From: Acidimicrobiales bacterium
GTDB taxonomy: Bacteria > Actinomycetota > Acidimicrobiia > Acidimicrobiales > JAVJTC01
Assembly (NCBI GenBank): GCA_040219085.1
Contig: JAVJTC010000029.1
Span: 62,001 to 126,000 of the forward strand
Length of the DNA stretch: 64,000 nucleotides
Direction of reading: 5' to 3'
A program made the translations under genes and the position numbers. This document shows positions 7,408 to 36,300 of this stretch, in pieces (position 1 is the first letter of the stretch; every line of letters begins with the position of its first letter). The notes beneath the pieces are model-generated. The model was not told where the DNA came from and searched no databases. It worked only from the letters and a program-made list of their open reading frames with translations.

Positions 7408-7424
7408 CCACCCGTCGAGCGGAC

Positions 7425-10546: not shown

Positions 10547-11313
10547 CGGGCGAGGAAGCCACCGTCCACGGGCATGGTGACGCCCGTGACGAAGCTCGAC
10601 ATGTCGCTGGCCAGGAACAGGACGACGTCGCCGATCTCGGTGGGTTGGGCGGGACGTCGCAGCGGAACCGAGGCGTCCAGGAACCCCTGCATGAGATCGC
10701 TGACGTCGGCGCCGGGTTCACGGCCGAAGAACCTGGGCAGCATCGGCGTGTCCACCGGACCGGGGCAGATGACGTTGACGCGGATCTTCGGGGCGAGGTG
10801 CAGCGCCGCAGACTTGGCGAACACGACGACGCCGCCCTTCGTCAGCGAGTAGAGGGGCGCGAACGGCGATCCCACGACCCCGGTGACCGATGCCGTCATG
10901 ATGATCGATCCGCTGGGCGCCTTCTCCATCACCGGGATCGCCCTGGCGACGGAGAAGAACATCGACTTGAGATTGATGTCGAGGGTCCGGTCGAAGTCCT
11001 CCTCGGACACGTCCGCTATCCCCGGAGGGCCGGGGATGCCGGCGTGGGCGAACAGGACGTCGAGGCGACCGTGGTCGCGATCGACCGCGGCGAACAGGTC
11101 CGCGATCTGGGAGACATCGCTGACGTCGACGGCGTGGGCGCTGGCCGACCCCCCGGCGTCGACGGCCATGGCGACCGTCTCGGCCGCTGCGGCCTCGTCG
11201 ATGTCGGCGACGACCACGTGCGCTCCCTCGGCGGTCATCTTCAGCGCACTGGCGCGCCCCATCCCCGATCCCGAGGCGGTGATGACCGCGACCTTGTCGT
11301 CGAGCAGACCCAT
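10543..11313 (-). CDS. SDR family oxidoreductase
   Basis: A 256-residue classical short-chain dehydrogenase: the cofactor-binding loop ASGSGMGRA near the N-terminus, HAG in place of NNAG, catalytic Ser in TASVTG and YSLTK (YxxxK). The Asp-containing VVVADID after beta-2 suggests NAD rather than NADP. It starts the minus-strand operon ending with the acyl-CoA ligase at 7425. Its start lies 76 bp from a shared promoter/operator motif (11389-11404) that it divides with the divergent LLM oxidoreductase. Substrate unknown, probably a hydroxyl intermediate of the same degradation route. Confidence 0.85.
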   Translation of the reverse strand: MGLLDDKVAVITASGSGMGRASALKMTAEGAHVVVADIDEAAAAETVAMAVDAGGSASAHAVDVSDVSQIADLFAAVDRDHGRLDVLFAHAGIPGPPGIADVSEEDFDRTLDINLKSMFFSVARAIPVMEKAPSGSIIMTASVTGVVGSPFAPLYSLTKGGVVVFAKSAALHLAPKIRVNVICPGPVDTPMLPRFFGREPGADVSDLMQGFLDASVPLRRPAQPTEIGDVVLFLASDMSSFVTGVTMPVDGGFLAR

Positions 11314-11388
11314 GGAAGCTCCTCCCCCGACCGCGCGGACCGGCGGTCACGTACCTGTCCGGGAGATGTCCCCGGGACGTGGCGAATG

Positions 11389-11404
11389 ATACGCACTATT
11401 CTCC
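11389..11404 (+). promoter_or_regulatory. Shared 16-bp promoter/operator motif, copy 1
   Basis: ATACGCACTATTCTCC lies just before the LLM oxidoreductase and occurs again with one difference (ATACGTACTATTCTCC, read on the minus strand) at 14525-14540 before the P450. Within it, TATTCT (11397-11402) is a TANNNT -10 box five nt from the ATG at 11408, so the LLM transcript is probably leaderless. The wider site GAAT...ATTC at 11384-11401 is imperfectly palindromic, as expected for a TetR-type operator. The regulator is not in the window as far as I can tell. Confidence 0.55.
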
Positions 11405-11407
11405 CCG

Positions 11408-12577
11408 ATGCTCAACGAGACGAAGTCCGTCGACCACCGCCTGGGAGGGCCCGTGCAGTTCGGAATGATCATCGGTGACGTGCCCCGCGACACGGACCCG
11501 ATCGACCAGCTGGACGGCCTCCTGGCCCAGGTCGAGGCGGGTCAGCGCAACAACCTCAAGCACTTCGTCATCGGCCAGCACTTCCTCTACGGGGATCTCC
11601 GCTGGCTCCAGCCGATACCGACGCTGGCCCGCCTGGCCGCCGAGATCGACGACGACGTCCGCCTCGGAATCACCGTCATGTTGACCCCGCTCTACAACCC
11701 GGTCGTGCTCGCCGAGGAACTCGCGACGCTCGACATCATGACGCGGGGCCGCCTCGACATCGGGCTCGGGCTCGGCTATCGCAGCGAGGAGTTCGATCTC
11801 CTGGGCGTGCCCTTCAAACAGCGTGTCAGCCGCTTCGAAGAGGGCTTCGAGATCATGAAGCTGTGCTGGACGACGAACGAGTTCGACCACCACGGCCAAC
11901 ACTGGGACATCACCGGGGCCACGCCCCACATCCATCCCGTCCAGAGGCCGTACCCGCCCATCTGGATGGGGGCGCACTCGCGCATCGGGGCCCGCCGCGC
12001 CGGCCGGGTCGGCGACCGCTTCATCATCCCGCCCGAGTACGACATCGCAGAGATGCGGGTCCGCCTCGGGATCATGAACCACGAGTTCGCCAAGAGGGGC
12101 AAGACGCTGGGTCATCAGCCGCTGCGCCGCAACATGGTGGTCGGACCGACCACGGAGGCGGCCCAGGAGAAGTTCGTGGACCTCGTCAAGGACCGCTACC
12201 TCACCTATGCCCGCAAGGAGCTCGACATCCTCGACGAGGACGCTCTGGCTGCGAACTTCTTCGACTCCGTGAAGGACTCCGTCGTGGCGGACACGCCCGC
12301 CAACGCCATCGCGAACCTGACCGCGCTGTGCGCCGCCCTTCCGATCGACCCGATCATCGTCAAGCCTCACTGGCCGACGATCTCATCGGAGGCGGCCATC
12401 GAGATCCTCGACGATCTGGGCCGCGAGGTGATCCCCGCTCTGAACGAGATCGAGCCGATGCCCATCGCCGAGATACCCGCCGCGCTCGCTCCCGCCGCGG
12501 ACGAGGTGGCCGCGGAGATCGCCGCCCAGGACGAGAAACAGCGGGCGAAGGCCGCCAACCGGAACCGATCGTCATGA
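11408..12577 (+). CDS. LLM-class flavin-dependent oxidoreductase
   Basis: A 389-residue luciferase-like monooxygenase/F420-dependent reductase family protein: VMLTPLYNPVVLAEELATLD, then RLDIGLGLGYRSEEF and a late YPPIWMGAHS block. It uses FMN or F420; the presence of cofC in the window makes F420 available. The ATG at 11408 follows a -10-like TATTCT at 11397-11402 with no Shine-Dalgarno, consistent with leaderless translation. The last ~40 residues are Ala-rich and low-complexity. It is followed after 19 nt by a SnoaL-like gene and shares a promoter motif with the P450 at 13230-14474, suggesting one oxidative pathway. Confidence 0.82.
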   Translation: MLNETKSVDHRLGGPVQFGMIIGDVPRDTDPIDQLDGLLAQVEAGQRNNLKHFVIGQHFLYGDLRWLQPIPTLARLAAEIDDDVRLGITVMLTPLYNPVVLAEELATLDIMTRGRLDIGLGLGYRSEEFDLLGVPFKQRVSRFEEGFEIMKLCWTTNEFDHHGQHWDITGATPHIHPVQRPYPPIWMGAHSRIGARRAGRVGDRFIIPPEYDIAEMRVRLGIMNHEFAKRGKTLGHQPLRRNMVVGPTTEAAQEKFVDLVKDRYLTYARKELDILDEDALAANFFDSVKDSVVADTPANAIANLTALCAALPIDPIIVKPHWPTISSEAAIEILDDLGREVIPALNEIEPMPIAEIPAALAPAADEVAAEIAAQDEKQRAKAANRNRSS

Positions 12578-12596
12578 CAACGGAGGAACGACACAC

Positions 12597-13142
12597 ATGA
12601 GTGACCTCGAGACGAGGCTGCAGTGGATGGAGGATCGCTTCGCGATTCAGGACCTGATCGTGTCCTATGCGATCGCCATCGACGACCGCGACATGGACAC
12701 CGTGGCGGACCTGTACAGCCCCGATGCCGTCTTCGACAGCGTGCTCGGCCGCAAGGAGGGCCGCGAGGCCGTCGTGGACTACTACGACAACCGCCTGGCC
12801 GAGTTCGGCGCCACGTACCACATCCCCTACATGAACTCCTGTGAGCGGGTCTCGGACACCGAAGCCACAGGAACGGTTCTCGCAGCCGCTGAGCTGGCGA
12901 TCGACGGCAAGGCCTTCGTGACGGCCATCCGCTACCACGACCACTACGTCAAGGGCGACGACGGCAAGTGGCGCTTCCGCGAACGCGGCCTCGAACAGCT
13001 CTACGCGATGAACCTCGAGGACCTCCCCGACGGTCTCGGCAGCGATCTCCGCAAGCGGTGGGCGGGTCAGATGGCCGCGGCGGACATCCCGGAGAACAAG
13101 GCCACCTGGACAGCCCACCGCGCCAAGCACGGGCTGAGCTAG
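12597..13142 (+). CDS. SnoaL-like (NTF2 superfamily) protein
   Basis: A 181-residue NTF2-like domain of the SnoaL_4 type common beside hydroxylases and SDRs in actinobacterial catabolic clusters (QDLIVSYAIAIDDRDMDTVADLYSPDAVFDS; WRFRERGLEQLY). A Shine-Dalgarno GGAGG (12583-12587) precedes the ATG. The C-terminal tail WTAHRAKHGLS is duplicated at the DNA level just behind the stop codon (31-bp direct repeat 13110-13140 and 13157-13187). Reaction unknown; it pairs with the LLM oxidoreductase upstream. Confidence 0.75.
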   Translation: MSDLETRLQWMEDRFAIQDLIVSYAIAIDDRDMDTVADLYSPDAVFDSVLGRKEGREAVVDYYDNRLAEFGATYHIPYMNSCERVSDTEATGTVLAAAELAIDGKAFVTAIRYHDHYVKGDDGKWRFRERGLEQLYAMNLEDLPDGLGSDLRKRWAGQMAAADIPENKATWTAHRAKHGLS

Positions 13143-21268: not shown

Positions 21269-24200
21269 TCAGCGGAAATCACGGCTGGCGGGAGAGCCGG
21301 TGACGGCAAGGGGTTCGAGCCGTTCGGCGATCACGTTGACCACACCCTCATTCCGTTCCAGGCGGCCCCGCACCACCAGCGCCGGGCAACCCAGCGCGAT
21401 GCGGCGGTGACGGGCCCAGCATCCCTTCGACACGACGACGTTGATGAGCCCGGTCTCGTCCTCGAGGTTCAAGAACGTGGTCCCACCCGCGGTCGCCGGA
21501 CGCTGACGGTGCGTCACCACCCCCGCCACGACCACCTTGGAGCCACGGTGGTCGGGCAGATCGACGGACACCGTCACCCCCATCTCATCGAGCTTCTCCC
21601 GCAGGAACCGGGTGGGGTGACCGTCGACGGCCACCCCGGTCACCGACAGGTCCGCCAGGGCCAACTCCTCGGGGGACATCCCCGGCAGGGTCGGCGCCTC
21701 GGCCCCCGTGACGATCCCCTCCAGGCGGTCCTCCCCCGTCTGTGCCACCGCCCCCGCACTCCACAGCGCCTCACGCCTCTCCAGGCCGAAGCACCCGAAC
21801 GCCCCCGCCGATGCCAGCGACTCCAGAACCGGCAGGCCCACCCCCACTCGCCGCCGCAGGTCCTCCATCGAGGCATAGGGCCGACCGGCGGCGATGCGTT
21901 CGGCCAGTTCGTCGCCGACGCTGCGCACCGACGCGACCCCGAGGCGCACCGCCACTCCCCCGGCCGATCCGGGCGCCGGTTCCAGGGTGGCCACGTCCGC
22001 GGACGCGTTGACACACGGTGGGAGAACCTCCACCCCGTGACGACGGGCGTCGGCCATCAGCGTGTGGGGCGAATAGAACCCCATGGGCTGGGCGTTCAAA
22101 AGCGCCGCGCAGAACGCCGCCGGGTAGTGGTGCTTGATCCACGATGACGCGTAGACGAGGTAGGCGAAGCTGACCGAGTGGCTCTCGGGGAACCCGAAGT
22201 TGGCGAACGCCGCCAGCTTCTCCCAGATCTGGTGGGCCACGTCGCCGGTGATCCCCCGCTCAGCCATCCCCTTGTAGAGCCGGCCCCGTAGCCGCTCCAT
22301 CCGGGCCTGGCTGCGCTTGGACCCCATGGCCTGACGTAGCTGGTCGGCCTCGGCCGCGCTGAACCCGGCGACGTCGATCGCCATCTGCATCAGCTGCTCC
22401 TGGAACAGCGGCACCCCCAGCGTCTTGGCAAGCGCCCCCTCCAGCAGCGGATGGAGATAGGTGACCGGTTCCCTGCCGTTGCGGCGGCGGATGTAGGGGT
22501 GCACCGACCCGCCCTGGATGGGGCCCGGACGGATGAGGGCGACCTCCACGACGAGGTCGTAGAAACACCGGGGCTTCAGCCGCGGAAGCGTGGCCATCTG
22601 GGCCCGGGACTCGACCTGGAAGACGCCGATCGAGTCCGCCCGGCACAACATGTCGTAGACCACGTCCTCCTGGGGCAGCGTGGCGATGTCGACCCGGCGG
22701 CCGTGGTGCTCGCCGATCAGGTCGATCGCGTAATGCAGCGCCGAGAGCATCCCGAGGCCGAGAAGGTCGAACTTCACGAGCCCGACGGCGGCGCAGTCGT
22801 CCTTGTCCCACTGCAACACGGAACGGTCCGCCATCCGCGCCCACTCCACCGGGCACACCTCGATGACGGGCCGGTCACAGATCACCATGCCACCCGAGTG
22901 GATGCCGAGGTGACGGGGCCCGTTCTCGAACTCCGCCGCGAGCGCCATGACCTCGTCGGGAACGGCCCTCTCCGCCGGTGTCGTGTCGGCCGCGGCTCCG
23001 CGCCCGTCGGTGGTCGACGCATGGGAGGCCAGGCCTGTCCAGCGGTCCAGGTTCTTCGCGAACGCATCCTGTTGACCGGGCGCGTAGCCGAGAGCCCTGG
23101 CCGCGTCACGCACCGCGGACCGGGCCCGGTAGGTGATGACGTTGGCGACCTGGGCGGTGTGGTGACGGCCGTAGCGCTCGTAGACGTACTGGATGACCTC
23201 CTCGCGGCGGTCGGACTCGATGTCGATGTCGATGTCGGGTGGCCCGTCACGGGCCGGCGACAGGAACCGTTCGAACAGCAGCCCGAGCGACACGGCGTCG
23301 GCCGCGGTCACCCCGAGCGCGTAGCAGACGGCCGAGTTGGCGGCCGATCCCCTGCCCTGGCACAGGATGTCGTTGCGGCGGCAGAACTCGACGATGTCCC
23401 ACACCACGAGGAAGTACCCGGGGAATCCGAGCTGGGCGATCACCGTGAGCTCGTGGTCGATCTGGCGCCATGCCCCGTCGGCGCGGGGGTCGCTACGGGG
23501 GCCGTAGCGGCGGGTGCCACCGGCTTCGGTGAGCGCCCGCAGGTAGGCCATCTCGTCGAGGCCGGCGGGGCACGGGTACGGCGGCAGCTTCGGCGCGACG
23601 AGCGACAGGTCGAAGGCCAGGTCCCGGCCGATCTGAGCGGCACGTTCCACGACCCCCGGGTAGCGGGCGAAGCGACGCGCCTGTTCGTCACCGGAGCGCA
23701 GGTGCGCGCCCGACGCCGCCGGTAGCCAACCGTCGATCTCCGCGAGGCTCCGGCGGGCCCTCACCGCCGCCATCGCCGTGGCGAGCCGACGCCGTACCGG
23801 GGCGTGGTAATGGACGTTGTTCGTGGCGACGACCTCCACCCCCGCCGCGGCGGCGATCTGCACCAGCGCGTCATTACGGGGACCGTCGAGGGGATGGCCG
23901 TGGTCCCACAACTCGACGACGACGTTGTGCCGCCCGAACGCGGCGACCAGTTCGTCGAGGGCGCGACGCGCCGCCGACGGGCCGGCCTCGGCCAGGGCCG
24001 CCGGAACGGTCCCCTTGCGGCACCCGGTCAGCACCATCCACGGGTCGCCGTCGGCCAGGTCAGCCAGCGCGTCGAGCGCCACCCTCGGTGCCCCTTTCTC
24101 CCCCTCGAGTTGGGCCAGGCTCACCGCCCGCGCCAGCCGGGCATAGCCCGCCGGCCCGCGGGCCAACACGAGGAGATGGTGTCCCACAGGGTCCGGGCGC

Positions 24201-24610
24201 CCCATCTGCGGCTCGGTCATGCCGAGGCTCAACTCGGCTCCGAACACGGTGGGCAGACCGTGGGTGCGGGCTGCCTCGGCGAACCGTACGACCCCGTAGA
24301 GCCCGTCGTGGTCGGTCAACGCCAGCGCCTCCAGACCGAGCCGCACGGCCTCCTCGGCCAACTCCTCGGGGTCCGACGCCCCGTCCAGGAACGAGAAGTT
24401 CGAGTGGCAGTGCAACTCGGCGTAGGGGGTGGCGCTGGTCCCGCGCACCAACGCGGGAGGGGCGTCGTAGGGCAGACGTACCCTCGACCACGCCGGGCTG
24501 TCACCACCGTCGGCGACGACCCCGGAATCGGGGTCCGGCACCGGGCGCGGCCGACCGGACAGACGTCGTTCGAGCTCGGACCACGGCACCGGTGGGTTAC
24601 GCCAACCCAT
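21269..24610 (-). CDS. dnaE2: Error-prone DNA polymerase III alpha subunit DnaE2
   Basis: An 1113-residue C-family polymerase of the DnaE2 (ImuC) type. The PHP domain begins at ~63 (YAELHCHSNFSFLDGAS); the palm contains PDIDIDIESDRREEVIQY at ~455-470 with catalytic Asp residues; helix-hairpin-helix and a C-terminal OB fold (GVVTHRQRPATAGGTTFLNLEDETG) follow. It makes mutagenic translesion synthesis with ImuA' and ImuB under SOS. The start at 24610 has no SD; TAACGT (24618-24623) and an SOS box (24627-24638) lie immediately upstream, so the mRNA is probably leaderless and LexA-controlled. imuB and imuA' are 5-12 kb away. Confidence 0.95.
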   Translation of the reverse strand: MGWRNPPVPWSELERRLSGRPRPVPDPDSGVVADGGDSPAWSRVRLPYDAPPALVRGTSATPYAELHCHSNFSFLDGASDPEELAEEAVRLGLEALALTDHDGLYGVVRFAEAARTHGLPTVFGAELSLGMTEPQMGRPDPVGHHLLVLARGPAGYARLARAVSLAQLEGEKGAPRVALDALADLADGDPWMVLTGCRKGTVPAALAEAGPSAARRALDELVAAFGRHNVVVELWDHGHPLDGPRNDALVQIAAAAGVEVVATNNVHYHAPVRRRLATAMAAVRARRSLAEIDGWLPAASGAHLRSGDEQARRFARYPGVVERAAQIGRDLAFDLSLVAPKLPPYPCPAGLDEMAYLRALTEAGGTRRYGPRSDPRADGAWRQIDHELTVIAQLGFPGYFLVVWDIVEFCRRNDILCQGRGSAANSAVCYALGVTAADAVSLGLLFERFLSPARDGPPDIDIDIESDRREEVIQYVYERYGRHHTAQVANVITYRARSAVRDAARALGYAPGQQDAFAKNLDRWTGLASHASTTDGRGAAADTTPAERAVPDEVMALAAEFENGPRHLGIHSGGMVICDRPVIEVCPVEWARMADRSVLQWDKDDCAAVGLVKFDLLGLGMLSALHYAIDLIGEHHGRRVDIATLPQEDVVYDMLCRADSIGVFQVESRAQMATLPRLKPRCFYDLVVEVALIRPGPIQGGSVHPYIRRRNGREPVTYLHPLLEGALAKTLGVPLFQEQLMQMAIDVAGFSAAEADQLRQAMGSKRSQARMERLRGRLYKGMAERGITGDVAHQIWEKLAAFANFGFPESHSVSFAYLVYASSWIKHHYPAAFCAALLNAQPMGFYSPHTLMADARRHGVEVLPPCVNASADVATLEPAPGSAGGVAVRLGVASVRSVGDELAERIAAGRPYASMEDLRRRVGVGLPVLESLASAGAFGCFGLERREALWSAGAVAQTGEDRLEGIVTGAEAPTLPGMSPEELALADLSVTGVAVDGHPTRFLREKLDEMGVTVSVDLPDHRGSKVVVAGVVTHRQRPATAGGTTFLNLEDETGLINVVVSKGCWARHRRIALGCPALVVRGRLERNEGVVNVIAERLEPLAVTGSPASRDFR

Positions 24611-24617
24611 GAGCCGG

Positions 24618-24638
24618 ACGTTAATCGAACATGTGTTC
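24618..24638 (-). promoter_or_regulatory. SOS box and -10 element of dnaE2
   Basis: GAACATGTGTTC (24627-24638, perfect GAAC-N4-GTTC) is the actinobacterial LexA box, flanked by TCG and GC. On the minus strand TAACGT (24623-24618) follows as a TANNNT -10 box and the ATG comes 7 nt later, so LexA binding would cover the promoter. The same box lies before imuB and imuA'. Confidence 0.88.
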
Positions 24639-24655
24639 GCTCACCAGTCGCGGAC

Positions 24656-26563: not shown

Positions 26564-27733
26564 GTGACGGGACAGAGGCTGACACTCACTGCGGCGATCA
26601 CGTCCACGACGACCGCAGCATTTCCTGCATTCCTGGCCGGAGCCGTGGGCGTCCAGTTGCGCGAGGACCTCGATTTCAGCGAGGGCCGACTGGGTGGCGC
26701 GATCGCCATCTACTTCTTCACCGCGGCGATCACGTCCACGAAACTCGGGAAGCTCGCCCAGCGACTCGGTCCGACCAACGCGCTGCGCATCGGTTGCGTG
26801 ATGTCGGCGACCGCGATGATCTGCATCGCGACCATGGCGGATTCGTGGCCGACGCTCTACGCATTCCTCGCCCTGGCGGGCCTGTCCAACTCGCTCGTCC
26901 AGCCGTCGACGAACCTCCTGCTGTCGGACCGCTTCGACGACGGCAACCTCGGCTTCGCGATGGGGCTCAAACAGTCCGGCATGCCACTGGCCACGCTGTT
27001 GGGCGGCGCTGCGGTTCCCGTGTTCGCGCTGACCGTCGGTTGGCGCTGGGCCTACGTGGCGGCGGTCGCGGTGCCGGCGATCGCATTCACACTCCTGAGT
27101 CGGGTGCACGCCGACATGCACGTGGCACCGAAACGCCACGGGCGTGTCCAGACTCCGATGGGGCCGTTGCTGTTGCTGGCCGTCGCGATGGTCTTCGGCG
27201 GCGCTGCGGTCACCGCACTCGGCGGATTCCTCGTCTCGTCCGCGGTCGACTCGGGCGTCCCCGACGGGCTCGCCGGCTGGATGCTCACCATCGGCAGCGT
27301 GTGCGGCATCTCCGTGCGACTCATCGCCGGCGCCCGAGCGGATCGCGGCACCATCGAACCGCTCGCCGCGTCGACGGTGATGCTGGCACTGGGTGCGATC
27401 GCATTCGCCGGACTCGCCATCCAGGACGCCTGGGCGATCTACGCGTTCACACCGCTCGCGTTCGGTGCGGGCTGGGCGTGGCCGGGGCTCTACCACCTCG
27501 CCGTGGTACGCCGTAACCGGGAGGCGGCCGCTGCGGCCACCGGCATCACCCAGGCCGGCGCCTACATCGGCGCGGGCGGCGGACCGTTGCTGTTCGGGGT
27601 CATCGTCGAAGCGTCCTCGTACCGCGTGGCCTGGCTCGTCTCTGCGGCCTACGCGCTGATCGGCGCGGCGGCGCTGGTCGGAGGCCAGATCTGGCTGAGG
27701 CGCCTGGTTCCGACCGACACGGTGGTGCGCTAG
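26564..27733 (+). CDS. MFS transporter
   Basis: A 389-residue 12-helix major facilitator with GTG start (VTGQRLTLTAAITSTTTAAFPAFLAGAVG). RLGP after helix 2-3 and a second-half GARADRG loop are degenerate A-motif positions. Helix-rich throughout (YAFLALAGLSNSLVQPSTNLL; ITQAGAYIGAGGGPLLFGVI). The last codons overlap the convergent oxidoreductase by 4 nt. Exporter or uptake of a small organic molecule; substrate not predictable. Confidence 0.8.
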   Translation: MTGQRLTLTAAITSTTTAAFPAFLAGAVGVQLREDLDFSEGRLGGAIAIYFFTAAITSTKLGKLAQRLGPTNALRIGCVMSATAMICIATMADSWPTLYAFLALAGLSNSLVQPSTNLLLSDRFDDGNLGFAMGLKQSGMPLATLLGGAAVPVFALTVGWRWAYVAAVAVPAIAFTLLSRVHADMHVAPKRHGRVQTPMGPLLLLAVAMVFGGAAVTALGGFLVSSAVDSGVPDGLAGWMLTIGSVCGISVRLIAGARADRGTIEPLAASTVMLALGAIAFAGLAIQDAWAIYAFTPLAFGAGWAWPGLYHLAVVRRNREAAAAATGITQAGAYIGAGGGPLLFGVIVEASSYRVAWLVSAAYALIGAAALVGGQIWLRRLVPTDTVVR

Positions 27734-29688
27734 CCGCCGACGGCAGCACCGACGTCGGCACCTTCGCGAAACGCGTGCATGGCCGTGCGCGGCGCCACGG
27801 CGTCCCCCGCGAGGTGAACGTGCGCACCGGTGGCCTCCGCCGACGCCCGAAGAGCCGTGTTCGCCCGGGCGTGGACACCGGCGACGACGGCGTCGAAAGG
27901 GCGCGTCGAACGCTGCTTCGAATAGACGTGACGGGTGGTCACCGCGCCATTGGCGATGTCCACGAAACCGGTCGAGGACTCCACTGTCGAGCCCTCGACA
28001 TGGAGGGCCTCCATCAAGGCCCGCAGGTGGGTGAATCCGACGGCCCACATCGGTGAAGGCCCCGGCGTGATGAACGTGACCTGAGCCCCGCGGGCGACGA
28101 GGGACTCCGCGGCCAGGGCCACCTCGTTGGTGCCGAGGTGGTCGACGACGAGGATCCCCGCACCGGAGACGTCGAACGGTTGACCGTCGAGACGCCCCCA
28201 CGCGGCGTCGTCGGTCGACAACACCGGCACGGAACCGTCCCCCACCCCGAGTGAGGCGGGATCCGGTGATGCTCCCGTCGCCAGGACGACCGCCCCGTAC
28301 CCGGCAGGGACGTCGTCGAGGTGTTCGCCGAGGCGCATCTCGACCCCGAGGTCTTTGCAGCGGTCGACGAGGTGTCGCACCGAATCCAGGAGCTCTGCGG
28401 CCGGCCCGCACCGTTCGAGCGCGAGCAGCCGCCCGCCCGGGCGGGACGCGGCGTCGACGACGGTGACCCGGTGGCCGCGCACGGCCGCGGCCTCGGCCGC
28501 CTTGAGCCCGGCCGGTCCGGCCCCGACGACGAGGACCTTCGCAGACCCGTTACGCCGCACCGGCGCCAGTCGGTGTTCACGGCCGACGTCGGGGTTGTGG
28601 AAACAGGTGATCGGCAGGGCCCCGACCATGCGGTCCACGCAACCCTGGTTCGCTCCCACGCACGGGCGGATCTCCGCGGTGCGACGGCTCGAGTACTTGG
28701 TGATCACATCCGGGTCCGCGATGTGAGCCCGGGTCATCGCGACCATGTCACACACACCCGCGGCCAGCGCCGCCTCGGCGTCATCAGGGGTGTGGAGCTT
28801 GCCGACCCCGATGACGGGGACCGCCGCGTCGATGGCCTGGCGAAGTCCCCCGGTGAGAGGCAGCCATTCTCCGTGGGGATGGCGGTAGTTGCCGATCGAG
28901 CGGGCGTAGTGGGAGGACTTCGCCCCTTCGGAGTGATTCAGGTAGTCGAGGCCCCCGTCGGCGACGAGCGCAGCCGCCACGTCCTGGAGCCCCTCGGCGC
29001 CGAGGCCGCCCTGGTCGGGACGAACCCAGTCATCGGCGGAGATCCGCAGACCAACGACGTGCTCTGCGCCGAGCGCGGCGCGGACCCGGGCGATGAGCTC
29101 GCGGGCGAAGCGCAGCGGCTCACCCCACTCGTCGTCGCGGTCGTTGCCCCACGGGCTGAACGACTGCTGGAGGAGGTAGCCGTGGGTGGCGTGCAACTCG
29201 ACCCCGTCGAGGCCGGACTCGACCGCCAGGACGGCGGTGCGGACGTAGCCGTCGAGGACTTCTTCGATCTCTACGCCGGTCATACGGTGCGAGCCCTCCC
29301 CCTCGGGCGAAGGCTGACCGTCGAAGGACCACAGGGGTTGCAGGTCCTCGCGGCCGTCGGAGGTGAACTGGGCGCCGAAGTGGAACAACTGGACCAGCGC
29401 GGTCGTGTCGTGACGGTGCAGACGGTCGGCGACATGGGCCCACTTGGGAGCCAGGTCGTCGCGGTCGTAGACGTGATGACCGAGGGCGTGGCTGGAGGGG
29501 TGGACGTGGACAGGTTGGAGGATGATGAGGCCGGCACCGCCGCGCGCCCGGGCCTCGAGGTAGCCCGCGTAGCGGTCGGCGGATTCCCCCGGGCGGTAGA
29601 AGTCGAGGAAGGCACCGTGGGCCGTCACCACGGCGCGGTTGCGAACCGTGACAGCGCCGACGTCGATGGGTTCGAGCAGGGTCGCCAT
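27730..29688 (-). CDS. FadH/OYE-family NADH:flavin oxidoreductase
   Basis: A 652-residue fusion as in 2,4-dienoyl-CoA reductase: an N-terminal FMN TIM barrel of the Old Yellow Enzyme type (~1-340, with HATHGYLLQQSFSPWGNDRDDEWG), a 4Fe-4S-like Cys cluster (CVGANQGCVDRMVG...C), then FAD/NAD(P) binding with VLVVGAGPAGLKAAEAAAVRG (~385). It reduces activated C=C bonds. Two subfamilies of this type are recorded near mycofactocin genes in other Actinobacteria; whether this one belongs to them is open, as the mft locus is 28 kb away. Promoter TAGTGT (29695-29700) 6 nt before ATG suggests a leaderless mRNA. Confidence 0.85.
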   Translation of the reverse strand: MATLLEPIDVGAVTVRNRAVVTAHGAFLDFYRPGESADRYAGYLEARARGGAGLIILQPVHVHPSSHALGHHVYDRDDLAPKWAHVADRLHRHDTTALVQLFHFGAQFTSDGREDLQPLWSFDGQPSPEGEGSHRMTGVEIEEVLDGYVRTAVLAVESGLDGVELHATHGYLLQQSFSPWGNDRDDEWGEPLRFARELIARVRAALGAEHVVGLRISADDWVRPDQGGLGAEGLQDVAAALVADGGLDYLNHSEGAKSSHYARSIGNYRHPHGEWLPLTGGLRQAIDAAVPVIGVGKLHTPDDAEAALAAGVCDMVAMTRAHIADPDVITKYSSRRTAEIRPCVGANQGCVDRMVGALPITCFHNPDVGREHRLAPVRRNGSAKVLVVGAGPAGLKAAEAAAVRGHRVTVVDAASRPGGRLLALERCGPAAELLDSVRHLVDRCKDLGVEMRLGEHLDDVPAGYGAVVLATGASPDPASLGVGDGSVPVLSTDDAAWGRLDGQPFDVSGAGILVVDHLGTNEVALAAESLVARGAQVTFITPGPSPMWAVGFTHLRALMEALHVEGSTVESSTGFVDIANGAVTTRHVYSKQRSTRPFDAVVAGVHARANTALRASAEATGAHVHLAGDAVAPRTAMHAFREGADVGAAVGG

Positions 29689-29716: not shown

Positions 29717-31369
29717 TCAGTCGTAGCTCGCCGCGAGGTACCACTCACCACCCTCGAGGACGACGAGCATGGCGGCCCCGTCGTCGAGGATCATCTGGAA
29801 ACGGGCCCGGCGACGCTGCGACCGGGGATCCCACCACCGCTCCTCGACCGGCCAGGGGCCGGCCCACGATGCGATCGAACGTGGCGGTCCCCTCTCGGGG
29901 ACGATCGTCGCCGGCTCATCGGACAACAGACCCCGTCCACTGACCGCCACCGGCTCTCCCGCCTCGTCGAGGACCCGCACGGGCACCGGCGCCGGGTGGA
30001 CGACCGCCGGCGAAGGTGGCGGCAACGCACCGGGCCATGGCGGCGTGTCGGGCGGCCGGACAGGTGACGGGGCGGACCCGAGCACGGAGGATTCGACCGC
30101 TCGCCGTTCACGTTCGACGAGGTCCACCGCCTCGGCCGCCACCCTCACGATCATCTCGGCCGGGTCACGTCCACCACGTCGTTCGGGAACCGACACCGTG
30201 CCGACCCCGGCGATCCCCTGGACGCGGGCGACGGCACGCGTCACCCGTTCGACGACGGCGGTCTGTGACCCCCAGAAACCGAGCTGACGACCGACCGCCG
30301 GTCCGACTTCGAGCGCGGTGAGGCCGAGGCGGGCCAGGCCGCCCGTGGGTCGCACGGCAGGGGGCCCGGTGAGCCAACCGTCGAGTTGCCACCGCACGCG
30401 ATCAGCGATCGCCGCGGGGCCGAGTGACCCCTCGCCGCGCCACAACCGGACGAGGGTCTCCCCGTGTTCGGTCTCGGCGGCGATCTCGACGAGCCCACAG
30501 CCCGACCCGTGGGAGCCGAGCCGGGTCGAGAGTTCGTCGGCGAGGGTCCGGGCGACGAACGCCGCCGCCTCGATGCGTTCGAGCGGCGGGTCGAGATCCA
30601 TGGTGACGGTCATGTCCGCCGGGGGGTCACGCAGATCCGGTGGGCGGCGGTCGAGGCCCCGGGCCAGACGGTGAGCCGTTGCTCCGACCTCGCCGAAACG
30701 ACCGAGCACGTCGGTTGCCGGCAGTGCGGCCAGGTCCCCCAGGGTGCGCACGCCGAGGCGCTTCCAGACTTCGACGGGCGCGTCACCGGTGCCGCCGTCG
30801 CCGACGGACACGATGTCGTCGACAGGGCGGGAGGCGAGGAACGCCCTGCTCCGCCCTGCGGCGACGACAGCGACCGGGCGGGCGGACCGGGCGGCGAGGC
30901 GGGCGGCGAAGACCCCGTCGGCGATGCCCACGTATACCGGCGGTGTCACGTTGCCGGGACCCACGGTCACATCGGCGAGCAGTTCGTGGACCCTGCGGGC
31001 CAGCACCTCGTCACCACCGAAGTAGCGCGACGGCCCCCGGGTGGGGAAGGCACACACACCGGGGCGGAGGATCTCCACGCGGGGACAGATGTCGTCGAGG
31101 ACGGTCAGGACGGGTTCGTGGTGACGGACCTCCGCCGCGGGGTCACGTTCGACCACGACGAGGTCCGCACAGCGCGACTGGGCTTCACGACGGCTGAGGC
31201 CCCGGTGCACCGTCGCCCGTCGGGCGGCCGGCGAACAGGCGACCACCCGGTTGGCGACCACCACCGCGACCGGCTCGTCGAGAGGTAGGCCGAGCGCGAC
31301 GACGGGCCAGTCGCCCTGGGCGACGACGAGCATGCGAACGGGGACGTCCCGACCATGGGCGGAGACCAC
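29717..31369 (-). CDS. imuB: ImuB, non-catalytic Y-family polymerase-like mutasome subunit
   Basis: A ~550-residue Y-family (DinB-like) protein lacking the catalytic acidic motifs: the first motif reads MLVVAQGDWPVVALG, and the SIDE-type motif is replaced by PSRYFGGDE. It should act as the beta-clamp-binding hub linking ImuA' and DnaE2. GTG 31369 is chosen as start because it lies six nt after GATACT, exactly as in imuA' (36253); Met 31333 is an alternative. LexA box at 31382-31393. The B2-like peptidase gene ends 42 nt upstream on the same strand, so some read-through from the RiPP cassette is possible. Confidence 0.88.
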   Translation of the reverse strand: MVSAHGRDVPVRMLVVAQGDWPVVALGLPLDEPVAVVVANRVVACSPAARRATVHRGLSRREAQSRCADLVVVERDPAAEVRHHEPVLTVLDDICPRVEILRPGVCAFPTRGPSRYFGGDEVLARRVHELLADVTVGPGNVTPPVYVGIADGVFAARLAARSARPVAVVAAGRSRAFLASRPVDDIVSVGDGGTGDAPVEVWKRLGVRTLGDLAALPATDVLGRFGEVGATAHRLARGLDRRPPDLRDPPADMTVTMDLDPPLERIEAAAFVARTLADELSTRLGSHGSGCGLVEIAAETEHGETLVRLWRGEGSLGPAAIADRVRWQLDGWLTGPPAVRPTGGLARLGLTALEVGPAVGRQLGFWGSQTAVVERVTRAVARVQGIAGVGTVSVPERRGGRDPAEMIVRVAAEAVDLVERERRAVESSVLGSAPSPVRPPDTPPWPGALPPPSPAVVHPAPVPVRVLDEAGEPVAVSGRGLLSDEPATIVPERGPPRSIASWAGPWPVEERWWDPRSQRRRARFQMILDDGAAMLVVLEGGEWYLAASYD

Positions 31370-31375
31370 CGCGCG

Positions 31376-31393
31376 AGTATCGAACACATGTTC
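31376..31393 (-). promoter_or_regulatory. SOS box and promoter of imuB
   Basis: GAACACATGTTC (31382-31393) is a perfect GAAC-N4-GTTC LexA box. On the minus strand GATACT (31381-31376), CGCGCG and the GTG start follow. The segment GATACT-CGCGCG-GTG is identical to that of imuA' (36251-36265), pointing to a common origin of the two promoters. Confidence 0.88.
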
Positions 31394-31411
31394 GTCTGCG
31401 GCAAGCCGTGG

Positions 31412-31804
31412 TCAGCGGGCCGGCGCGAGGGCCGTGTAGTCCTCCTCGACGGCTCCGTGGACGACGTTGCCGTCCATGTCCTCCACCCAGGCGTGGGCGC
31501 TGAACCCCCTCGGGCCTGCCGTGGCCACGCCGAAGCGCACCTCACAGTCGTGGCCGCGTGAACGCATGAGCCGGCGCATCGCATACGCCTGCGGGAGACA
31601 CGTGTAACCCGGGATCACGCGCGCCGACGTGGACACGGCACTCGAGAGGCGTACCGGGTCCGCTCGCCGCCGACCGAGGGCGCCGGCCGACTCGTTGAGC
31701 GTGGCGGTCGGACGGAACCTGAAGGCGATGCGGTAGCGGGTTCCTACGACGACGGCCACCATCACGAGCCAGGCCATCGTCATGCGACGGGCGAGTGCGT
31801 TCAT
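31412..31804 (-). CDS. Lasso-peptide B2-type cysteine peptidase (transglutaminase-like)
   Basis: A 130-residue protein of the Transglut_core3 / lasso biosynthesis B2 type. The ATG at 31804 shares one base with the stop of the PqqD-like gene (TGATG). The catalytic Cys is in PGYTCLPQAYAMRRLM, His follows 35 residues later in FSAHAWVE and Asp seven residues after that (DMDG), matching the McjB Cys-His-Asp triad layout. A hydrophobic N-terminal stretch (MTMAWLVMVAVVVG) may anchor it to the membrane. In lasso systems B2 cuts the leader off the precursor once B1 delivers it. The expected cyclase is absent here, so it may act as a simple leader peptidase. Confidence 0.83.
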   Translation of the reverse strand: MNALARRMTMAWLVMVAVVVGTRYRIAFRFRPTATLNESAGALGRRRADPVRLSSAVSTSARVIPGYTCLPQAYAMRRLMRSRGHDCEVRFGVATAGPRGFSAHAWVEDMDGNVVHGAVEEDYTALAPAR

Positions 31805-32079
31805 CACGGGTCGGTGACGGCGAGGTTCCGTTCGACGAGGTCGACCAGCAGAGCCTCGAGGTCGGTGCGGGCCCGCCCCTCGTCGACATCGAACTCCGAA
31901 ACCACCAGGGCAGTCAGTTCGTCCAGCGACCTCGGCTCCTGTATCCATGACCACACCGAGGCCGCCACAGGGTTGAGCCCGTGGTACTGGCCGGTGCCCA
32001 GGTTCAACACGACCGTCTCTCCGTCGATCTCGTTGGCGACCAGCGACGTGCCGACGACGTACGTGGGTCCGGTTTCCAT
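31804..32079 (-). CDS. PqqD-like RiPP recognition element (lasso B1-type)
   Basis: A 91-residue PqqD-fold protein: VANEIDGETVVLNLGTGQYHGLNPVAASVWSWIQ, then a winged-helix end (DELTALVVSEFDVDEGRARTDLEALLVDLVERNLAV). This is the leader-binding RRE found as B1 in lasso clusters and in kinase-linked peptide systems. A strong SD GGAGGAA lies ~6 nt before the ATG. It sits between the kinase (22-nt gap) and the B2 peptidase (1-nt overlap), so all three are probably translated from one transcript. It likely binds the YxxP leader of the peptide at 33116. Confidence 0.87.
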   Translation of the reverse strand: METGPTYVVGTSLVANEIDGETVVLNLGTGQYHGLNPVAASVWSWIQEPRSLDELTALVVSEFDVDEGRARTDLEALLVDLVERNLAVTDP

Positions 32080-32101
32080 CGCGATTCCTCCGCTGCAGAG
32101 C

Positions 32102-33040
32102 CTAGGCCCGCACCAGGTCCAGGATCTCCTCGACGTGCTCGTCGAGTCGGGTCAGATCCCGGGGGACCGACAGAAGCGAACAGGGGACGGCGCCGACGAG
32201 ACGGCCCGCCGCGGCGAAGGACCGGTCGAGTTCGGTCGGGTCGGTGTGATCGAGCAGGAACTGGCACCTGATGATGGCCTGCAGAAGCGCTGCCCCCTGC
32301 AGTGGTGAGACCTCCAGGCGCATCGTGGTCGCCGGGGCGAGGAGAAACACCCGATCCAACGGCAACGCCGACGCGGCGAAAGGAACCGCTCCGGCATTCC
32401 CGTACCTCGACTTGCCCGACGCGAGTCTCACCGTGTCGTTGCGTTCGGACTCCGGCAGGAGCGTGTCGAGCGAGTCACCCCACAGACGAACCCCCGGATA
32501 CGAAGGTCGGACCCGGGCAACAGTGCCGTCATCGTCGAGCACGAGGCAGTCGTCGCTCACCACCGGATGGCCACGCCGGCCGAAGTGCGCCGCCAGAGTC
32601 GACTTTCCTCGTCCCGACACACCGAGGAAGGCCGCGGCCACCCCGTCGAACTCGACGGCGCTTCCGTGGAACACGGCGGCACCGCGGTGCGAGAGCGCGA
32701 GGGGCACCACCTGGTCGAGGAGGGCGCCGACGACGACTCCCCTCGAGCTCGCCGGCGTGGCTCGACACCGGATCGTCGCTGCATCGGATGCGATCTCGTA
32801 CTCGACCTCCTCTCCGACCCGCAGGACGTACCCGCCGGCCCCGTTGCGTGCCGCCCGCAGGCGGGGAGTCCCCGATGCGTCGTCCCAGGAGCGGAACCAC
32901 TCACGCTCTGCGGGGTGCGGTCGGGAAACCTCCTCCCAGATGACCTCGAGATCCACCGACGCGGTCCGCTCAACCGCGGGGAGCTCGCCGAGGGGACGAT
33001 TGGACCTGATGGTGAGCCCGTAGGCGATGTGGTGGTGCAT
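32102..33040 (-). CDS. HPr-kinase-like peptide kinase (lasso tailoring type)
   Basis: A 312-residue protein related to the HPr kinase/phosphorylase C-terminal domain. The N-terminus MHHHIAYGLTIRSNRPLGEL matches the start of RiPP-linked HprK relatives and fixes the start at 33040. HGSAVEF (~125) precedes Walker A GVSGRGKST (140-148), then PVVSDDCLVL with the paired Asp (163-164). There is no HPr protein nearby. Characterised relatives (paeninodin-type PadeK/ThcoK) phosphorylate the C-terminal Ser of a lasso precursor; the local peptide ends in Ser-Ser. The same kinase type also occurs with PqqD proteins in the 'HPr-rel' peptide systems. Substrate assignment is inference. Confidence 0.82.
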   Translation of the reverse strand: MHHHIAYGLTIRSNRPLGELPAVERTASVDLEVIWEEVSRPHPAEREWFRSWDDASGTPRLRAARNGAGGYVLRVGEEVEYEIASDAATIRCRATPASSRGVVVGALLDQVVPLALSHRGAAVFHGSAVEFDGVAAAFLGVSGRGKSTLAAHFGRRGHPVVSDDCLVLDDDGTVARVRPSYPGVRLWGDSLDTLLPESERNDTVRLASGKSRYGNAGAVPFAASALPLDRVFLLAPATTMRLEVSPLQGAALLQAIIRCQFLLDHTDPTELDRSFAAAGRLVGAVPCSLLSVPRDLTRLDEHVEEILDLVRA

Positions 33041-33079
33041 GTCGTCGCCCGGGATCAGTGGTGGTGGAGGCGGGTGTCG

Positions 33080-33109
33080 TTGACCGGGCCAGAGTGCCAC
33101 GGATACGGT
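33080..33109 (+). promoter_or_regulatory. Promoter of the RiPP precursor gene
   Basis: TTGACC (33080-33085) and TACGGT (33104-33109) are separated by 18 bp, a good -35/-10 pair for the housekeeping sigma factor. Six nt then lead to the ATG at 33116, so the transcript is probably leaderless. It lies in the 75-bp divergent space to the kinase gene, allowing joint control of both arms of the cassette. Confidence 0.65.
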
Positions 33110-33115
33110 CGCAGG

Positions 33116-33250
33116 ATGAACACCGATACAGACCCCCGCAGTCCCCAGCCCAAGGCCCGGCGCGCCTACGAGGTTCCCGCGGTCACCGACTTCGGTTCAG
33201 CCGAGGTCCTCACCCAACAGATCTCGAATCCCGACTACGTGAGCTCGTGA
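33116..33250 (+). CDS. Putative RiPP precursor peptide with lasso-type leader (44 aa)
   Basis: The peptide is charged at the N-terminus and carries YEVPAVTDFG (residues 18-27), the YxxPx(L/V) element bound by lasso B1 proteins, then SAEVLTQ, the usual end of lasso leaders with Thr at -2. Cleavage after Gln34 would leave the ten-residue core QISNPDYVSS. It ends in Ser-Ser, a fitting target for the divergent kinase. Asp40 would be core position 6, not the 7-9 needed for a lasso macrolactam, and no cyclase gene is present. Start ATG 33116 follows a clear promoter. Too short for most gene finders, so easily missed. Function of the product unknown. Confidence 0.72.
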   Translation: MNTDTDPRSPQPKARRAYEVPAVTDFGSAEVLTQQISNPDYVSS

Positions 33251-33257
33251 CTCCGGA

Positions 33258-33290
33258 GGTCGGGGTCGGGACTACGTCCCGATCCCGACC
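33258..33290 (+). terminator. Strong hairpin between precursor and HEXXH gene (attenuator-like)
   Basis: GGTCGGGGTCGGGAC (33258-33272), loop TAC, GTCCCGATCCCGACC (33276-33290): 15 bp with a single G-U pair. No T-run follows (TTGG), so full intrinsic termination is doubtful. It more likely lowers expression of the downstream enzyme relative to the peptide or protects the peptide mRNA 3' end, a common layout in RiPP operons. A GGAGG (33255-33259) overlaps its foot. Confidence 0.7.
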
Positions 33291-33299
33291 TTGGCTCTG

Positions 33300-34274
33300 A
33301 TGATTGACGAACGCTCTCCCCTTGCAACCCTGCTGTGGGTGGACGAGCAATACCACTGCGACGAGAGCCTTCCCGATTGCTTCGGTGACAGCTACCTCGT
33401 AGCTCTGAACCCTGTGTTCCGTGGCGTGCGTCTCACGGCCCGGGAGATGGGTGTCCGCTTCGTCGATCGGCCCGATGCTCTGGGGCATCGCTACCGGTCC
33501 GCGCCACTGACCGCTCTCGCTGCGATCCTCGCGTCCGGGACGGTCCCCTACGCGGGAGACGTGGCGACACTGCGTGAGATCGCCGCCTCCGGCGTTCCCG
33601 TCGCCGCAGACGCGAACGAGCTGCGACTGTTCTTCTCGGGTCACGTGGTGATGCACGAGTCCGCCCACCTGGTGGCCGACCGGATCTTCTCTGAGGTCCT
33701 CCGCACCGGGCCCGACATCGCGCCGGTGGAGGCGACCATCGCCGCACTCCTGGGCGAGGCCGTCGCCAACACGACCGAGACGCTCGGCGGCCTCCACGCG
33801 ACCCACGGCACCCACCAGCTCCTGTACTCCTGGAACTCGCTCAGCTCCGGGAAGGAATCCACACGCGCCGCCCTGCGGGCACTCGTCGCGCGCCACGGAA
33901 TGAAGATCGTGTTCGGCATCGCCATGTGGATCTACTTCCATCAGAACCTCATCGCCCACACGAACGCGTGCCCACCCACCTACATGGCCGCGTGCGGGCG
34001 GTCGGTCTTCGACGGGACCGACGTGCCGGCCGCGGATCGCCAGGTCGCGGTGACGACGTGCGCCGCGATGCTCGAGTTGAACCCCGGAGCGCGCGAGACG
34101 ACCACCCCCGCCTACTTCCGCCTCTCGGGCACCGAGGAGGACTTCCGGACGGCGGCATCCCTCGACCTCGGTGACCGCGACGTCATCGATGCGCTGGGCA
34201 TCGCTGCGGCCATCACCGAACTCACCGCGCGGGTGAGCGAGTGGCTGGTCGATCCCGCCGACATGGCGAGTTGA
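33300..34274 (+). CDS. HEXXH-motif protein next to RiPP precursor (unknown function)
   Basis: A 324-residue soluble protein with HVVMHESAHLVAD, a HEXXH metal motif at 119-123, and a possible third ligand Glu153 in LLGEAVAN. Five Cys (20, 27, 224, 232, 254) but no CxxC pairs. I do not recognise the family. HEXXH proteins near RiPP genes include peptidases and a group of peptide-modifying enzymes (the mod_HExxH type, some known as 2-oxoglutarate-dependent peptide beta-hydroxylases), which is one idea for this gene. ATG 33300 is preferred; TTG 33291 at the hairpin foot is in frame. It follows the precursor by 49 nt and probably shares its promoter. Confidence 0.65.
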   Translation: MIDERSPLATLLWVDEQYHCDESLPDCFGDSYLVALNPVFRGVRLTAREMGVRFVDRPDALGHRYRSAPLTALAAILASGTVPYAGDVATLREIAASGVPVAADANELRLFFSGHVVMHESAHLVADRIFSEVLRTGPDIAPVEATIAALLGEAVANTTETLGGLHATHGTHQLLYSWNSLSSGKESTRAALRALVARHGMKIVFGIAMWIYFHQNLIAHTNACPPTYMAACGRSVFDGTDVPAADRQVAVTTCAAMLELNPGARETTTPAYFRLSGTEEDFRTAASLDLGDRDVIDALGIAAAITELTARVSEWLVDPADMAS

Positions 34275-34277
34275 CTG

Positions 34278-35555
34278 TCACCGGAGCGCAGCGGCCCGGA
34301 CCACCCGCCGGTTGGTGACGGCGCGGGCGATGGCGACGGCCAGCATCGCCGAGCTGAGACCCATGCCGATATGACTCAGGTGGTGGTAGCCGATCGTGTC
34401 GACAGCGAAACCGGCCGCCACGGCGGCGATGGCGCCACTCGCCGACATCGCGACATCAGACAGCCCCTGGGCCGAGACCCGGACCTCGACGGATACCGAC
34501 TCGGTCAGCAGTGCACTTCCCGCCACCAGCGCGAGGCTCCACCCGAAACCCAGGGCGAAGAGTGCCAGCAGCATCATCACGGACTCCGAGCCGTGGGAGT
34601 GGCCGGCCGTGTCGGTCGCCAGCACCAGGACGGCGGCACCGAGTGCGAGCGTCGGCACCCTGCCGATCCTGTCCGCCAGCCGACCCGCCACCGGAGAGAA
34701 GGCGTACATCCCCGCGATGTGGGTGCTGATCACGAAACCGATGAACGCCTTCGACTGTCCACCGTCGTCGAGATGGATCGCCGTCATCGACATGACCCCG
34801 ACCATGGTCGCGTGGGCGACGACGACGGAGGCCAGTGACACGGCTGCGTCGAGGTTCGTGCGGATGGCCGTGATGGCGGGACGCAGGGGACGACGCCCCA
34901 CTCCCGGCGCGTCGAGGCCGCCCGCTTCGACGAGAGGGTCGGGCCGGAGTCGCTTCGCGACGAACAGGGCGGCGCAGAATGCGAGGACCACTCCCACGAT
35001 GGGCAGACCCGCCAGTTCCTCCAGACCGAGTGAGTCGGCCACCCGAGAGGACGGGCCGAGCAGGTTCGGCGCAGCGACGGATCCGACCGTCATCGCCCAC
35101 ACGACCGTGCCGATGGCACCGGCGCGTCCGGCGTCATCGGCCAGGTCGGCCGCGGCGAACCGGGCCTGGAGTCCGGCCGCCTGGCCGATTCCCACGGCGG
35201 CCATCCCGACGAGCAGAAGCGGATAGGAGCCGATGGCTGCTGCCAGACCCACTGCGAGCGCACCGACGCCACCGACGGCGAACCCGCCGGCCAGAACGGG
35301 TCGCCGGCCCACCTTCGAGGCATGACGGGCGAGCGGTAGGGCGGCGAGCGCGGTTCCCAGGGTGAGAGCCGCCGTTGCGGTGCCCGCGAGCGAGTCGGTG
35401 TCGGTGATCTCCTTGGCCAGCAGCGAGCCGATCGTGACGACGGCTGCGGTGGTCCCACCCGCGAGGACCTGGGACCACACGAGGGTCCGCACCGTACGGC
35501 GCTGCAGTTCTGCACGGGAGACGGCCTCTCCGATGCCGGGCCCGGTCGCGGTCAC
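34278..35555 (-). CDS. MFS transporter, translationally coupled to imuA'
   Basis: A 425-residue 12-TM major facilitator: LARHASKVGRRPVLAGGFAVGG (motif A loop) in the first half, GRLADRIGRVPTLALG in the second, and FALGFGWSLALVAGSALL. The GTG start (35555) overlaps the imuA' stop by GTGA (35552-35555), so it should be expressed with the SOS-controlled imuA'. It resembles drug/metabolite efflux families. It ends 3 nt from the convergent HEXXH gene. A role in exporting the neighbouring peptide is possible by location, but its promoter belongs to imuA'. Confidence 0.8.
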   Translation of the reverse strand: MTATGPGIGEAVSRAELQRRTVRTLVWSQVLAGGTTAAVVTIGSLLAKEITDTDSLAGTATAALTLGTALAALPLARHASKVGRRPVLAGGFAVGGVGALAVGLAAAIGSYPLLLVGMAAVGIGQAAGLQARFAAADLADDAGRAGAIGTVVWAMTVGSVAAPNLLGPSSRVADSLGLEELAGLPIVGVVLAFCAALFVAKRLRPDPLVEAGGLDAPGVGRRPLRPAITAIRTNLDAAVSLASVVVAHATMVGVMSMTAIHLDDGGQSKAFIGFVISTHIAGMYAFSPVAGRLADRIGRVPTLALGAAVLVLATDTAGHSHGSESVMMLLALFALGFGWSLALVAGSALLTESVSVEVRVSAQGLSDVAMSASGAIAAVAAGFAVDTIGYHHLSHIGMGLSSAMLAVAIARAVTNRRVVRAAALR

Positions 35556-36253
35556 CCGGCGAGTGTAAGAGCGCGACCACCCCCATGTGGAACCGTTTCG
35601 GTCTCCTCGGCCACGCGGACGACGCCATCGGCATCGGGAAGCCAGATTCGACCACGACGGATACCGCCCTGGCGGCGGCCGGAGACGGCGAGTTCCACCC
35701 GGCGGGCGCGTAGGACTCCATGGCCGCGACCGAGCCCGGTCCACACCGACCCGGTGACGGCGACCGTGACGTCGGGGGCGTCGGGCCAGTCGGTTCCGCC
35801 GACCCGCATCAGCACTCCGCCGCGCTCTCGGTTGCGGCTCACGAGCTTGCGGGTCCGGGAGGCCGAGAGCCGCGGCTGGTCGACGACAAGGGTCAACTCG
35901 AACGCGTCGACCAGCGCGGCGGTGACCGCCGGAACGAGCCGGGACTCGGGGTCGTCGACGAGGACGAGACGTTCCAGGGGAAGGCCGAGTTCATCGGCGG
36001 CGGCCAGTCCGAGACGACGCGACCCCACCACCGCGACCCATGAACCCGCCGATGCCGCCTCGACACACAGGGCCAGGGCGACCGACACCGCCGCACCCTC
36101 CCCGGTCACGGCCAGGGTGGACCCCCGGACGAGTCCACCCCGTCCGATCAGCGAGGCGAAGGCGCCGGCGACGGGCAGAGTCTGTTCGAGCGCGAGGCTG
36201 ACGGGCCGGAGATGTTCGGCGACGGCGGCGAGTTCAGGACGGGGGGAAGCCAC
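35552..36253 (-). CDS. imuA': ImuA'-type RecA-like mutasome protein
   Basis: A 233-residue RecA-like protein of the actinobacterial ImuA' type (LALEQTLPVAGAFASLIGRGGLVRGSTLAVTGEGAAVSVALALCVEAASAGSWVAVVG), which binds ImuB and supports DnaE2-dependent mutagenesis. The Walker A loop is degenerate (TGEGAAVS lacks the GKT/S), as in ImuA' proteins that have lost ATP binding. GTG 36253 is preferred because it lies six nt after GATACT; an ATG at 36271 would fall within the LexA box. The MFS gene follows by GTGA overlap. imuB is 4.2 kb away, beyond the RiPP cassette. Confidence 0.85.
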   Translation of the reverse strand: MASPRPELAAVAEHLRPVSLALEQTLPVAGAFASLIGRGGLVRGSTLAVTGEGAAVSVALALCVEAASAGSWVAVVGSRRLGLAAADELGLPLERLVLVDDPESRLVPAVTAALVDAFELTLVVDQPRLSASRTRKLVSRNRERGGVLMRVGGTDWPDAPDVTVAVTGSVWTGLGRGHGVLRARRVELAVSGRRQGGIRRGRIWLPDADGVVRVAEETETVPHGGGRALTLAG

Positions 36254-36259
36254 CGCGCG

Positions 36260-36277
36260 AGTATCGAACATGTGTTC
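36260..36277 (-). promoter_or_regulatory. SOS box and promoter of imuA'
   Basis: GAACATGTGTTC (36266-36277) is a perfect LexA box; on the minus strand GATACT (36265-36260) and CGCGCG follow, with GTG at 36253. The same -10, spacer and start occur at imuB. LexA binding next to the -10 would repress both until DNA damage. Confidence 0.88.
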
Positions 36278-36300
36278 GGGGAGTTCAACCCCTCGCCGGT

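Follow-up and report, generated by a model that had tools for sequence, protein, structure and literature searches.

The window, as we call the whole 64,000-nucleotide stretch of Acidimicrobiales DNA analysed here, is part of C29, a contig of 279,663 bases, in a 3.77 Mb genome of 45 contigs. An earlier note on this DNA had described five genes, all of which are present as placed: a tightly packed reverse-strand run encoding a B2-type leader peptidase with a transglutaminase-like fold (31412–31804), a PqqD-like leader-binding protein (B1, or RRE; 31804–32079) and an HprK-type peptide kinase (32102–33040), and, divergent from these on the forward strand, a 44-residue YxxP/LTQ precursor peptide (33116–33250) and an orphan HEXXH protein, a probable metalloenzyme (33300–34274). 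An RNA hairpin (33258–33290, forward strand) is predicted between the latter two genes. The probable B2 start is the ATG at 31804, overlapping the PqqD stop (the listed open reading frame began at GTG 31954), the kinase probably starts at ATG 33040, and the HEXXH gene probably starts at 33300, its listed frame having begun at 33291. A reverse-strand MFS transporter gene (34278–35603, start uncertain; PF07690, 96 bits) is convergent with the HEXXH side of the cassette. PADLOC returned no matches.

These genes are flanked by an ImuB-like gene (29720–31387) and an ImuA' gene (35555–36271; NF058630). The two are adjacent in all twelve relatives that have both on the fetched stretch (L126–L128, L130–L138), whose imu loci are also missing the MFS gene, and because the same pair is parted by ~4.2 kb in the window, the cassette and MFS gene look, from their position, like one acquired insert; the MFS protein is therefore a candidate exporter. 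Both imu gene starts carry a 38-nt direct repeat with a LexA/SOS box, at 31357–31394 (imuB) and 36241–36278 (imuA'), the copies being 87% identical. A third perfect LexA box, CGAACATGTGTTCG, is present at 24626–24639, before a DnaE2-like polymerase gene (21269–24610; family named from sequence). A FadH/OYE-type oxidoreductase at 27733–29688 comes near a mycofactocin-system model, yet scores 430 bits against a cut-off of 793.

The precursor consists of the leader MNTDTDPRSPQPKARRAYEVPAVTDFGSAEVLTQ followed, after the predicted cut, by QISNPDYVSS. In published lasso leaders, YxxPxL spans positions -17 to -12 and position -2 is Thr (PMC10368454). Counted from Gln(-1), the window precursor has Tyr at -17, Pro at -14 and Thr at -2 in this register, with Val replacing Leu at -12. 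A strict search pattern for this leader has a single match in the window, at the precursor gene, where 0.017 matches would be expected per 64 kb of shuffled sequence, and the precursor scores 15.4 bits with the lasso leader model NF033521, slightly below its cut-off of 19. Its ribosome site is weak. The core predicted by the Thr(-2) rule is ten residues long, with serines at positions 3, 9 and 10, and the resulting Ser-Ser C-terminus corresponds to the C-terminal Ser of paeninodin-type substrates. In lasso peptides the ring is closed onto an Asp or Glu of core position 7–9 (PMC10368454) and comprises 7–9 residues (PMC8498205). Since the only acidic residue of this core is Asp6, with four residues beyond it, a canonical lasso would be excluded by the sequence if the cut falls at the predicted site.

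The kinase matches HPr_kinase_C and HprK_rel models partially, around a GVSGRGKST P-loop and below the family cut-offs, and contains a His-Lys-Asp-Asp quartet (H127, K148, D165, D166) that is invariant in the alignment and common to cyclase-linked kinases; it was equated by motif, not by PadeK alignment, with the published quartet that is essential in paeninodin-type kinases, which phosphorylate the linear precursor on its C-terminal Ser (PMC9266682). BsfK phosphorylates Ser3, aided by B1 (PMC10368454). The two B proteins are split, as in lasso systems: B1 matches PF05402 (4e-17, 62.7 bits) and scores 41–46 bits with the lasso_PqqD models, under their cut-offs, and B2 matches PF13471 (9e-19) and NF033537 (73.5 bits, cut-off 33). 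B2 had been described as a Cys-His-Asp peptidase, which holds for Cys and His only, because the usual Asp column of the triad reads HG instead of ND; that Asp column is also missing from most of the cyclase-bearing B2s in the window's branch of the B2 tree. The window thus shares with the paeninodin-type (PadeK/ThcoK) and BsfK systems a YxxPx(L/V) leader, Thr(-2) (Ile in Bsf), split B1/B2, an HprK-type kinase and core Ser targets, and with the paeninodin-type kinases the quartet; unlike them, it has no cyclase gene, a ten-residue core without Asp/Glu at 7–9, and an extra HEXXH gene.

The note's observation that the window lacks a cyclase extends to the whole of contig C29, where Asn_synthase (PF00733) has no match. 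We think it about an even chance (probability roughly 0.5) that the cassette makes a linear peptide that is trimmed of its leader and tailored by the kinase, and is no lasso peptide. The genome itself is not cyclase-free, and in this respect the idea that lasso parts have been reused for a non-lasso peptide needs qualifying, while the leader, cleavage and kinase parts without a cyclase, the unfit core and the recurrence described below are in its favor. A strong Asn_synthase match on another contig (C20:51036–52148) has as neighbours genes for a nucleotidyltransferase (NTP_transf_5), PqqD, B2, HprK-like proteins and sulfotransferases; its best NCBIfam matches are albusnodin/ikarugamycin and lasso-type macrolactam cyclases, below their cut-offs. 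The candidate precursors of this cluster combine a WxxP leader with a core that begins NGATTGSD (acceptor at 8) or AEDPVTDD (acceptors at 7/8). Because C20 holds a cyclase, B1, B2, HprK-like genes and acceptor-bearing candidate precursors, the genome has a separate lasso-type pathway of its own. This cyclase could act in trans on the window precursor, which counts against a linear product, and might then close a ring from Gln1 to Asp6, unusual in having six residues, or form a different macrolactam. We regard such action as unlikely, and a product of this kind as quite improbable: the resemblance of the C20 protein to lasso-type cyclases and its full company of B1, B2, HprK-like and nucleotidyltransferase genes speak for it, whereas C20 has its own B1/B2 and precursors with a different leader and Asp7/8 acceptors, and the window core has none at 7–9 and would be left with a tail of four residues. 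Thirteen PqqD-type matches are present in this genome, on C4, C6, C20, C33, C34 and C39 (L048–L056), and several of these loci adjoin HprK-like genes without B2 or cyclase.

Cyclase-less sets of this kind are recurrent in the class. Among 395 genomes of the class, 23 have matches to NF033537, at 24 B2 places in all, and the surroundings of these places were scanned with profiles built from the window and C20 proteins, over ~6–10 kb either side of B2, the span to which the absence of a cyclase applies. An Asn-synthetase gene is present at 13 of these loci (L098, labelled in the trees, among them), and B1, B2 and HprK occur without one in the window and at five other loci (L070, L103, L105, L106 and L108); L107 has PqqD and B2 without cyclase or HprK, on a contig of only 6 kb, and L099 and L102 have B2 alone. 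Precursors with lasso-type leaders lie beside most of the loci. Of 8 loci with a cyclase, 7 have an acceptor at core position 7–9; of 6 without a cyclase, 1 does (Fisher p=0.026). This is a small sample, its cut sites come from prediction, and its precursors were chosen by eye from pattern lists. The five loci resemble the window in leader type, B1, B2, HprK and the missing Asn-synthetase gene (~6–10 kb), and differ from it in that most have a nucleotidyltransferase (NTP_transf_5), none has an HEXXH gene, and their kinases and B2s belong to other clades. A contig scan with a two-sequence HprK profile (a six-sequence alignment being too diverse for this use) recovered no more than two loci, each of them a cyclase-bearing lasso-type cluster. 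The kinase and B2 trees scatter the cyclase-less loci, so these are not a single group, and the window stands as a separate case.

The same trees bear on whether the cassette is still in use. The window kinase pairs, with modest support (81/83), with that of L057, a cyclase-bearing lasso operon, and falls outside the clade of L103, L105 and L106 (support 100/100); the window B2 groups with B2s that are all from cyclase-bearing clusters (support 84/84). Since its nearest kinase and B2 branch belong to cyclase-bearing clusters, recent loss of a cyclase and decay at the window are possible, and the altered B2 Asp column would fit a paeninodin-type lasso cluster whose core has degenerated and that has no present product. 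Set against this are the open frames of all the genes, with high GC3 of 0.80–0.86 in the kinase, precursor and HEXXH genes (0.80 in the precursor, 0.855 in the HEXXH gene), intact catalytic residues in the kinase, the exact leader register and the close packing of the genes, and we consider a decaying remnant unlikely. The unconserved Asp column and the weak ribosome site of the precursor nonetheless also count against an active linear-peptide pathway, as does the placing of the HEXXH protein by position.

Of all parts of the cassette, the HEXXH protein is least well explained. HESAH is at residues 122–126 (counted from 33291) and GEAVAN ~30 residues past the second His, a spacing that we take to be peptidase-like and to resemble that of gluzincin peptidases. 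The protein has no match in Pfam, NCBIfam or PDB, and its fold predicted from the single sequence has a pLDDT of 38, too low for use. No convincing relatives were found in 59 genomes of the same order, 395 of the class and 326 of the phylum (overlapping sets), in genome-contig and viral pattern searches, or in plasmids and phages; the weak matches that were checked (L077, L078, L080 and L111) lacked the motif or vanished on re-search. A conserved class defined by PqqD, B2, HprK and HEXXH together is therefore not supported, there being no detectable HEXXH relative near any other cassette: the genome search proposed in the earlier note recovers PqqD, B2 and HprK without Asn synthetase at five loci, which HEXXH never joins.

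Some HEXXH proteins of RiPP clusters are hydroxylases of the 2-oxoglutarate type (PMC12636437), and members of TIGR04267/IPR026337 (ChlH, BpmH, PflC, PosC) are likewise HEXXH proteins beside a precursor. In contrast to these, the window protein has no match to the TIGR04267 profile even at E 1, and hhalign with one fetched family member gives a probability of 0.3%, the sequence past HEXXH being different; the model also has no match in the window's own genome. As the HEXXH gene is unique, its membership in the cassette is suggested by its position, 49 bp downstream of the precursor on the same strand and behind the hairpin (17 bp, -38.5 kcal/mol, z -5.7), which is unique in the window and equalled in stability by 0 of 200 shuffles. 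A hairpin downstream of a lasso precursor gene has been reported, and hairpin removal is a known step in astexin-1 refactoring (PMC7549694). It is somewhat short of an even chance that the gene is unrelated cargo or encodes a protective or processing metallopeptidase instead of a tailoring enzyme, which would be compatible with a linear product; the missing relatives, the unmatched hydroxylase model and the HESAH–GEAVAN spacing point this way, and the same-strand location with its lasso-like hairpin points the other.

For a linear, kinase-tailored peptide, the steps would be as follows. B1 would bind the YxxPxV leader, the kinase would phosphorylate Ser of the bound precursor (in the C-terminal Ser-Ser or at core Ser3), and B2 would cleave after Thr-Gln, freeing the ten-residue QISNPDYVSS, whose N-terminal Gln could cyclise to pyroglutamate enzyme-free; no macrolactam would form. 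The HEXXH protein is probably translated from the mRNA of the precursor, below the stabilising hairpin, and may work as a metalloenzyme with the peptide as its substrate, and the MFS protein may export the peptide. We do not claim the cassette as a proven new class, and it is doubtful that cyclase-free use of B1, B2 and kinase constitutes a separate RiPP class of phosphorylated linear mini-peptides (3–20 residues), with the HEXXH protein founding a new family of peptide-modifying metalloenzymes.

Nothing relevant on lasso-type clusters without a cyclase was found in the open-access library searched; lasso clusters are usually identified by their B and C genes jointly, so cyclase-less sets are easily overlooked. 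Such cassettes are a natural test of cyclase dependence in B1, B2 and the kinase. If the leader can be bound and trimmed and the peptide phosphorylated with no ring being closed, the machinery of lasso biosynthesis would be a more general route to small phosphopeptides, with cores of 3–10 residues being very small RiPP products. Three of the cyclase-less loci (L103, L105 and L106, with PqqD, B2, HprK and a nucleotidyltransferase) have precursors that end shortly past the lasso-type cut (L103 9978–10058 and 5664–5738, L106 10456–10530 and L105 6019–6132): the ends are LGLLRKLTR followed after the cut by FSF (twice); FSVV; and the longer STQSFTPPRWGLPS. At L106 there is a perfect AGGAGG site. 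Sets of this type are rare, with strong matches only in G146 and G180 among 58 genomes of that order. Precursors are multiple at two other surveyed loci: L108 has three with MSYEAPxVRSLGSVAE (11012–12803), one with Asp8, beside PqqD, B2 and two kinases and without a cyclase, and at L100, next to genes for PqqD, B2, a kinase and a cyclase, seven short ones stand in tandem (6912–7661), most of them having a core of the DGS type.
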